NCBI GenBank assembly: GCA_017387505.1
Contig: JAFOFB010000022.1
Span: 1-64,000, forward strand
Origin: Methanocorpusculum sp.
GTDB taxonomy: Archaea; Halobacteriota; Methanomicrobia; Methanomicrobiales; Methanocorpusculaceae
Reading direction: 5' to 3'
Length of the DNA: 64,000 bases
Part shown: positions 31,004 to 32,661 of the stretch, in pieces
How the letters are laid out: each line of letters opens with the position of its first letter
How positions within the stretch are numbered: the first letter of the stretch is position 1
Notes under the pieces: model-generated
Told to the model about the DNA's origin: nothing
Seen by the model: the letters and a program-made list of their open reading frames with translations, nothing else
Databases searched by the model: none
Program-made: the position numbers and the translations under genes

Positions 31004-31066
31004 GATTTGTTATAGGGCGGGTGAGTATTTCAACATGGGGTTAGAGGATGTTTTTTCGATTCAGTT

Positions 31067-31900
31067 TTACTTCTTCGACACTCTAAATATATCATTCAGT
31101 GTTTTTCCATCACGTTTCCATTCAACCCATCCATTTGTACTTCCTCCGAGAACAAAATCAGATGCACCGCTTGGAGACTTAAAGGAAATAACTTTTGTCA
31201 GATAGTATTTATCTCCTCTTTTCACGATTGCCCCGTCAGCAAATAAATTTGCCCGTAACTGATTGTAACTCTCCAAGTTTACCTTGTGTGTATAATCTAT
31301 CTCTGATTCAGGAAGTACATCGAAGGAATCACCATTGTAAACTCCAAAAGCCACGATGTCCCGTCTTGATGTTCTGAATCCGTCAGTTACAGAAGAACCG
31401 CTTGTTCCTGCATTCATTTTATATCCAAGCGTTGCCATTATGAACTCGATTTCTTCATAAATGGAAACGATAAGCGGTTGGTCATACTCAGATATCTGAT
31501 ATTGTGGGTCAATTTTGTTAAAGAGCGTATAACGGTTAGATTCTAATGCTTTCTGAATTGCATATTTTTCAAGACCACTGATAATATTGAGTGTGAAATG
31601 TTCAGAATCTCCAAGGAATAATACTGCCTTATTCCAGAATCCTTTATGCGATTTGTGGTCATTCATACGTTCGATTCCTTTACGTGTCTGACCGATGTAA
31701 ATCTCAGTAAGGATACCTCCTTCATCATTTATCAAAAAGTAGATTCCGGGATTATTGATTCCTGTTATATTTTTAGCATCACTGAGACATGACCGCGGGA
31801 TGACATATGCCTTCATTGGTGATAACCGTCTCATGCATGTTCTAATTCCATCTGGTTTCCCATCATGGAAGATAATTTGCATAAGTTCCATCTTAGTCAT
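31067..31900 (-). CDS. GIY-YIG nuclease-fold protein with DUF4357
   Basis: 277 residues. GIY-YIG core: PGIYFLIND, EIYIGQTRKGIERMNDHKS (YIG with the following Arg) and the helix GLEKYAIQKAL with the catalytic Glu, then a conserved Asn in YTLFNK. The C-terminal 60 residues are DUF4357, with SPSGASDFVLGGSTNGW and VEWKRDGKTLNDIF. Such two-domain proteins occur in bacteria and archaea without known role; homing, repair or defence are possibilities. More A/T-rich than neighbours and single, next to the inverted-repeat element at 31961-32180, so mobility is possible. Start at 31900; ATG at codon 4 is an alternative. Confidence 0.8.
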   Translation of the reverse strand: MTKMELMQIIFHDGKPDGIRTCMRRLSPMKAYVIPRSCLSDAKNITGINNPGIYFLINDEGGILTEIYIGQTRKGIERMNDHKSHKGFWNKAVLFLGDSEHFTLNIISGLEKYAIQKALESNRYTLFNKIDPQYQISEYDQPLIVSIYEEIEFIMATLGYKMNAGTSGSSVTDGFRTSRRDIVAFGVYNGDSFDVLPESEIDYTHKVNLESYNQLRANLFADGAIVKRGDKYYLTKVISFKSPSGASDFVLGGSTNGWVEWKRDGKTLNDIFRVSKK

Positions 31901-31960
31901 ACGTACTTTTAGATTGGTTTTAGAATAGTTAAAGATAGGGGTTACCTAATCTCAGATAAA

Positions 31961-32180
31961 TTCTTGAAAAATATCAATACTTTTTTTTCAGAATTGGGGT
32001 GCGGAGCCGCGACTTCGGCGCGGAGCGGCTCGCGGTGGAAATATCTTATGTTCAAATAAGTGTTCAAGATATTTTTTTGAAAAATAGAGGTTATTAGAAA
32101 TCCTCCTTAATTAGATGAAGATATTTCCACCGCGGACGGCTCCGCGCCGGAGTCGCCGTCCCGCACCCCGAATTCAAGAA
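31961..32180. repeat. Inverted pair of GC-rich hairpin arms with compensatory changes
   Basis: Two arms (31991-32047 and 32118-32175) are about 57 bp and inverted copies with 70 bp between. Each arm has its own perfect 7-bp stem: GAGCCGC/GCGGCTC (32004-32010, 32025-32031) and GGACGGC/GCCGTCC (32134-32140, 32155-32161). Aligned, the arms differ mainly at three stem positions, and each change is matched on the opposite strand. Outer copies TTCTTGAA (31961-31968) and TTCAAGAA (32173-32180) extend the symmetry. ATATCTT (32041-32047) can pair with 32066-32072 or 32118-32124. It resembles REP/BIME elements. Function unknown. This fills most of the gap between two genes. Confidence 0.8.
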
Positions 32181-32220
32181 ACACGGTTTGGGATGCTTTT
32201 TATATGTGTCAGGAAATGCT

Positions 32221-32661
32221 CTACTTCTGGAGTTTTACAATCTTTTTCTCCATTGCAAGCAATGCCTTCTTAATCTCAATATCAGGAGAAAAGCCGCCAA
32301 GCCCGTCTGTTCCAACCACTCTATGACATGGAATGATAAGCGGAGTTGGATTTCTGGACATTGCATTTCCAACAACCCTTGCATGTGTGCCTGCGGCCTC
32401 TGCAATCTCTGCATAGGTTTTTGTTTTGCCGTACGGGATTTTTGAAACCTCACGGTAAATTCTTGCGTAAACCGAGTCTCCTAAAAGAGCTGATGATGTA
32501 AGCGGGTAAAAGTCAGTGCCTTTTCCTGCAAGAAACTTCGTAAACTGAACCGGAACTGAGCCCGCATCTGCTGTTTTCAGGAAACGGACGCGGTGGACTG
32601 TTGCTTCGTCCCAGTCAACAACGACCTTCCAGAGATTAAATGAACACGAACCCGACAGCAT
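32221..32661 (-). CDS. ogt: Methylated-DNA--protein-cysteine methyltransferase
   Basis: Suicide enzyme that removes alkyl groups from O6-methylguanine. 146 residues. Active-site PCHRVVG with the DNA-binding helix RVVGNAMSRNPTPLIIPCHR, and IPYGKTKTYAEIAEAAG ahead. The ATG at 32661 shares a base with the stop of the helicase gene (TAATG), so translation is coupled; the four-codon earlier start is unlikely. Short N-terminal domain. Repair partner of the helicase next door. Confidence 0.94.
   Translation of the reverse strand: MLSGSCSFNLWKVVVDWDEATVHRVRFLKTADAGSVPVQFTKFLAGKGTDFYPLTSSALLGDSVYARIYREVSKIPYGKTKTYAEIAEAAGTHARVVGNAMSRNPTPLIIPCHRVVGTDGLGGFSPDIEIKKALLAMEKKIVKLQK

Follow-up and report, generated by a model that had tools for sequence, protein, structure and literature searches.

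Are the two GC-rich hairpins that lie head to head at positions 31961–32180 of a 64,000-nucleotide stretch of Methanocorpusculum DNA (hereinafter, the window) a single element maintained as a pair, or two copies of a repeat with a wider history, and why are the differences between their stems compensated? The answer that we favor, with a probability of about two thirds, is that both belong to a genus-restricted hairpin module that has spread inside MITEs of three IS families and often outlasts the decay of these elements, its folded strand being selected, perhaps for a role in RNA.

Two inverted hairpins with compensated stem changes

A repeat search of the window recovered two inverted arms, 31975–32047 and 32118–32190, each 73 nt long, 77% complementary and 70 nt apart, in agreement with the layout described in an earlier note on this DNA. 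The left hairpin core (31996–32038, plus strand) contains the stem AGCCGC/GCGGCT, formed by 32005–32010 with 32025–32030, and the loop GACTTCGGCGCGGA; the right core (32127–32169, minus strand) contains the stem GACGGC/GCCGTC, formed by 32155–32160 with 32135–32140. The two cores share their feet and, apart from a single change (GACTT/GACTC) that had been noted before, their loop; the six-base stems differ at three positions, all of them compensated, exactly as the note had claimed. Ahead of the GGGG of the left core lies a T-rich tract (31978–31995, plus strand) which, judged by column conservation, is conserved in the unit and corresponds to half of the spacer of the tight dimers described below; the conserved tail AAATATCTTATG (32039–32050, plus strand; alignment columns +43 to +51) follows 3′ of the core. 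The note had further assigned ATATCTT two competing partners; the second one, AAGATAT at about 32066–32072, lies in a stretch for which the majority of sister copies have TGATAA or GGATAA and, being not conserved, looks like a chance pairing.

The repeat goes far beyond chance: a 220-bp query comprising the locus produced 22 matches in its own draft genome and matches in 13 of the 25 genomes of the genus. The earlier note had proposed a covariance-model search of the genome and its relatives, and held that a single copy without a homologue would speak against a maintained element. Such a model, built from 44 copies, matches the left hairpin at G000:C22:31980–32050 (91.5 bits) and the right one at 32115–32185 on the minus strand (88.2 bits), and detects the unit in 12 of the 25 Methanocorpusculum genomes, in up to 31 copies (7–31 per better-assembled genome), and in none of ~207 other genomes of the order; the unit is thus multi-copy and has homologues in relatives. 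In a helicase tree, the carriers fall in two clades, A and B, a distribution that requires either two gains or a single gain followed by losses. Named contigs with the exact pattern belong to Methanocorpusculum, along with some filed under bacterial MAGs (Clostridia, Bacteroidales, Bacilli and Acholeplasmataceae). The latter agree in sequence with Methanocorpusculum DNA, so that mis-binning is the most likely explanation, and we reject a presence in bacteria; probable cases of mis-binning, carrying Methanocorpusculum DNA together with the repeats, are L049, L060, L064, L068, L081, L096 and L097. No viral contig was found to have the hairpin pattern, which led us to dismiss a viral origin.

A variable but paired stem between fixed letters

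The hairpin unit follows the pattern GGGGTGCGG-N6-GACTYCGGCGCGGA-N6′-CGCGGTGGAAATATCYTA, and its consensus runs from the T-rich tract through GGGGTGCGG, N6, GACTYCGGCGCGGA, N6′ and CGCGGTGG to AAATATCYTA; the module is ~75 bp long, of which 43 bp make up the core. The search placed no constraint on N6; nevertheless, almost every copy has an N6 that pairs with N6′. These stems form at least five Watson-Crick classes, namely GGACGC/GCGTCC (20 copies), GGCCGC/GCGGCC (17), AGCCGC/GCGGCT (17), GGCGGC/GCCGCC (13) and GACGGC/GCCGTC, for which the right window hairpin is the sole copy found; in a further class, GAGGGC/GCCCGA (24 copies), two G-A mismatches stand in tandem. Tandem G-A pairs are stable according to structural work, and this class may therefore be stable despite its mismatches. 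The stems of clade A fall into the AGCCGC and GGCGGC classes, in addition to the GACGGC stem of the window, and clade B mainly GAGGGC, GGACGC and GGCCGC; chimeric stems, such as GGACGC/GCGGCC, occur as well. Among the clade A hairpins, L267, L012, L013 and L273 have an alternative loop, GACTTACGAGCCGGA and similar, and large loop insertions are present in the copies L010 and L271.

Across the 44 aligned copies, 96.3% of the cells are paired compared to 87.1% in shuffles, and 41 double-change cells were counted compared to 12.2 in shuffles, with none of the 500 shuffles reaching as high. The fraction of paired cells, the number of double-change cells and the covariation score all exceeded every shuffle and every slid control. 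Similarly, stem arm pairing was 0.905 vs. 0.688 after shuffling (shuffle maximum, 0.743). The compensatory pattern of the window pair thus generalizes across copies, and this covariation supports the earlier proposal that the shape of the hairpin, not the sequence of its stem, is kept. In the inner-loop pairs of the aligned copies, double changes were never seen, so that the inner helix does not share this support. A common U-G/C-G polymorphism at alignment columns 36/44 (a T/C change at column 36) preserves a U-G or C-G pair on the GGGG strand only, which favors folding of that strand. The combination of fixed letters with a freely changing but paired stem suggests that the selected form is the folded single strand.

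Conservation was compared in 47 disjoint pairs of copies whose alignment ran on past the unit for at least 80 columns. Mismatch amounted to 2.9% in the fixed core letters, 16.8% in the stem arms and 16.9% in the flanks of these elements, the flank value being biased downwards by BLAST extension; core divergence was below flank divergence in 45 of the 47 pairs. Judging from these sequences, the fixed letters and the stem pairing therefore appear to be under selection, with the caveat that the copies were found by a pattern allowing at most 8–10 substitutions, so that decayed cores could be missed. When MITEs in the complete genome G023 were approached from the flank side (12 sites, ~7 of them informative), cores were intact, absent or cut through, and none was found that had decayed by 4–10 point changes. 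Gene conversion cannot easily account for segments that are conserved both beside and between diverging stems.

Genomic context of the copies

All 28 copies in G023 are intergenic according to a codon-usage gene caller. An initial ORF caller had placed 15 of 30 hairpins within ORFs; these ORFs were spurious and were removed by the codon-usage caller. With respect to neighboring genes, 10 copies are convergent, 17 tandem and 1 divergent, compared to ~5, 16 and 7 expected from intergenic length. Of the copies between tandem genes, 9 point in the same direction as the genes and 8 in the opposite one; this near balance does not favor a strand-specific 3′-end signal and led us to reject a gene-strand-specific terminator. 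The distribution of the copies along the genome is uneven: a stretch of 511 kb is free of them (G023:C1, 748688–1260220; p ~ 0.013), while other regions are dense.

The hairpins reside in three MITE families

Hairpin units lie inside three MITE families with different terminal inverted repeats (TIRs): T1, with the TIR TAGGACTTACGCGGTG and an IS701-like partner (L222, with a broken frame); T2, with CCTGAATTTGACAGTTGGC and IS1634 (L220, L221); and T3, with GAGGATTTCTAACAACC and IS5 (L210, L211). The genus thus has transposase-coding ISs with the TIRs of each family; these partner ISs themselves lack the hairpin. Complete MITE copies with both TIRs were seen for all three families. Insertion is shown for T1 and T2 by empty sites with target duplications: a 571-bp hairpin-bearing insertion in M. 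parvum XII (L056) has the TIR TAGGACTTACGCGGTG and the duplication TTTGAA, its site being empty in a relative; one of ~480 bp in UBA424 (L084) has the TIR CCTGAATTTGACAGTTGG and the duplication TTGGTAAAAA, again vs. an empty site; and G005, which we take to be M. labreanum Z, contains two more with empty counterparts (L284, CTTAAA; L263, ATCAGAC). T2 duplications range between 6 and 10 bp in length. T3 yielded no empty site, only 5-bp flanking repeats resembling target duplications (TATAT, AAATA and TGCTT). Many hairpin copies have no recognizable TIR; for one of them, the lone hairpin at position 144530 of G023, the orthologous site holds a degenerate T2 MITE in G020 and is empty in G005, so that lone hairpins can be relics. 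A T1 copy is nested inside a T2 copy in L266, and L079 has chimeric ends. A second palindrome family, GAAAAACCNGCGNGCNGGTTTTTC, recurs beside the hairpin inside T1 MITEs (L011, L019, L026, L056 and L284).

The T3 elements of clade A are ~295 bp long, with a hairpin dimer at their center. Because these tight inverted (−)(+) dimers, which have a constant geometry of 83–93 bp from start to start, lie within T3 MITEs, the MITE appears to be the unit that spreads. Avoidance of identical stems within a pair was considered as well: the clade A dimers are all mixed, but clade B pairs often match, and no such rule holds.

Origin of the window pair

The arrangement of the window pair is opposite to that of the tight dimers. 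The left hairpin belongs to a truncated T3 MITE (31950–32105, plus strand) that consists of spacer, hairpin, subterminal region and a single TIR, GAGGATTTCTAATAACC, at its right end (32089–32105, minus strand), the only T3 TIR in the window; compared to the complete ~295-bp copies in other species, the distal arm and the other TIR are missing. The right hairpin, with its half of the spacer, belongs to a second half-element (32115–32200, minus strand) that lacks the distal arm and the TIRs. The pair is thus two truncated half-elements placed head to head, the left one being a T3 element cut on its left side, and the notion of the pair as one designed unit had to be abandoned. A circular permutation was dropped as well, given that each arm retains its own spacer side and two truncated elements suffice.

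The stretch that carries both hairpins and a gene for a 277-aa GIY-YIG plus DUF4357 protein (31067–31900, minus strand) extends from 31059 to 32240 and is absent, gene and hairpins alike, at the orthologous site in G013, G007 and G014; in G012, this site has a remnant of the upstream region of the gene together with an intact dimer in the usual arrangement. Elsewhere, McrBC-type restriction genes are located between inverted hairpins 3.4 kb apart (L082, 3182–6653; L063, 250–3720; 96% identical). We rejected an autonomous hairpin-bounded element in this case: the two instances are apparently one locus in two close genomes, and there is no transposon signature.

Proposed spread and possible function of the module

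We propose that the module disperses as an internal part of MITEs, the ends of which transposases from three unrelated IS families would recognize in trans. At the sequence level, this proposal draws on insertion with target duplications (T1 and T2) and on IS partners (all three families); mobilization by the partner transposases would be the step that connects them. The MITEs would then decay by truncation, often leaving the hairpin behind once the ends are lost, as seen in the window. Passage of the module from one family to another would most likely have involved MITE nesting combined with recombination at the hairpin, a route consistent with the nested and chimeric copies. With regard to function, we tentatively suggest a role at the RNA level, where the hairpin would serve read-through transcripts as a stable structured stop or protect their ends, making intergenic insertions tolerable. 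A broader possibility, in our judgment rather doubtful, is that the hairpin travels between unrelated MITE families as a passenger, selfish or functional, making it a shared cargo domain of mini-transposons, possibly with mobility of its own, and that it is kept because its folded single strand is recognized by a putative specific Methanocorpusculum protein or RNA.

Could the hairpin unit, or the tight inverted dimer, be mobile itself, moving as single-stranded DNA in the manner of a REPIN and repeatedly inserting into MITEs? Such mobility would fit the recurrence of one core in both clades and in three MITE families that differ in their ends, the many copies without a recognizable TIR and the constant geometry of the clade A dimers. 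Nevertheless, it appears unlikely: a Y1 transposase of the RAYT/TnpA-REP type (PF01797) was detected in none of the 25 genomes, while 5 control genomes were positive; no hairpin-only empty site was found; and the single lone copy that was traced in relatives is a MITE relic. The same absence of PF01797 led us to reject RAYT-driven REPs, and it makes a true archaeal REP/BIME family mobilized by a RAYT since lost from the genus very improbable, notwithstanding the short intergenic palindromes, the inverted doublets and stem subfamilies with alternative complementary residues as in bacterial REPs (PMC3733652); a GTAG/GTGG or CGTC tag is missing at the hairpin foot, and copies lie inside DDE-type MITEs.

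The compensatory changes might also be unselected, having arisen by arm-templated correction of quasi-palindromes in replication or by stem exchange through recombination, in a family that is otherwise neutral. The discreteness of the stem classes, the chimeric stems and one orthologous site where the stems of a dimer have changed places or been inverted are all compatible with this explanation, which we nonetheless consider improbable: it leaves the low divergence of loop and feet relative to the flanks unexplained, and templated repair would erase the conserved tandem G-A mismatches of a common class. The spread of a selected hairpin inside MITEs remains our preferred reading. The family is real and spreads by ordinary means; what makes it unusual is that its hairpin is shared and strongly conserved, perhaps for the function suggested above.

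Comparison with known systems

Rfam yielded no gathering-level match in the window, and the sub-threshold, miRNA-like matches at the locus are palindrome artefacts, so that a known RNA family was rejected; so was a link to TnpB and omega RNA, for which only weak C-terminal TnpB matches were obtained, all but one below the cut-off. Terminal hairpins of IS200/IS605 and TnpB-associated RNA resemble the module as folded strands with conserved loop letters, but the genus lacks a Y1 transposase and the Methanocorpusculum hairpins are internal rather than terminal.

The RAYT transposase is thought to drive REP evolution. The earlier note named REP/BIME as the nearest concept, and this holds for form, that is, for short palindromes that are intergenic and multi-copy, but not for descent or mechanism. 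Like REP, BIME and REPIN elements (PMC3733652; PMC3116915), the hairpin is short, GC-rich and intergenic, occurs in tens of copies and inverted doublets, and has compensatory stem subfamilies; like the CGTC class of REPs (PMC3733652), it has no dedicated transposase. Stem subfamilies with alternative complementary residues are already known in bacterial REPs, so that compensation in a stem is not by itself a novelty. Unlike REPs, the hairpin has no RAYT and, immediately 5′ of the stem, neither a GTAG/GTGG nor a CGTC tag on either strand (the consensus feet being GGGGTGCGG and CGCGGTGG), its loop and feet are long and conserved, and it is confined to one archaeal genus and placed inside TIR-bounded MITEs. 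The RepRanger survey of 2025 reported putative archaeal REPs, i.e. palindromic intergenic repeats (PMC12306157); these are single palindromes called on energy and length, with no grouping into families and no MITE context or covariation, and Methanocorpusculum is not mentioned in that paper. In the open-licence literature, no description of the hairpin was found in the M. labreanum genome paper or the 2023 paper on the genus.

The carriers are recognizable MITEs: like those derived from IS1634, IS701 and IS5, they share TIRs with transposase-coding ISs of the genus, have target duplications vs. empty sites, contain no ORF and measure a few hundred bp. They differ in having one internal hairpin module common to three unrelated families, with a core conserved about six times better than the rest. 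The novelty lies in the combination of features, namely a home in an archaeal genus, the absence of both tag and RAYT, and a hairpin module common to three MITE families. With a complete M. labreanum genome, many species and empty sites, the system is tractable for asking why intergenic hairpins persist in prokaryotes, and a REP-like archaeal hairpin that is backed by covariation, lacks a RAYT and is common to three MITE families with unrelated transposases separates the conservation of the hairpin from the transposase.
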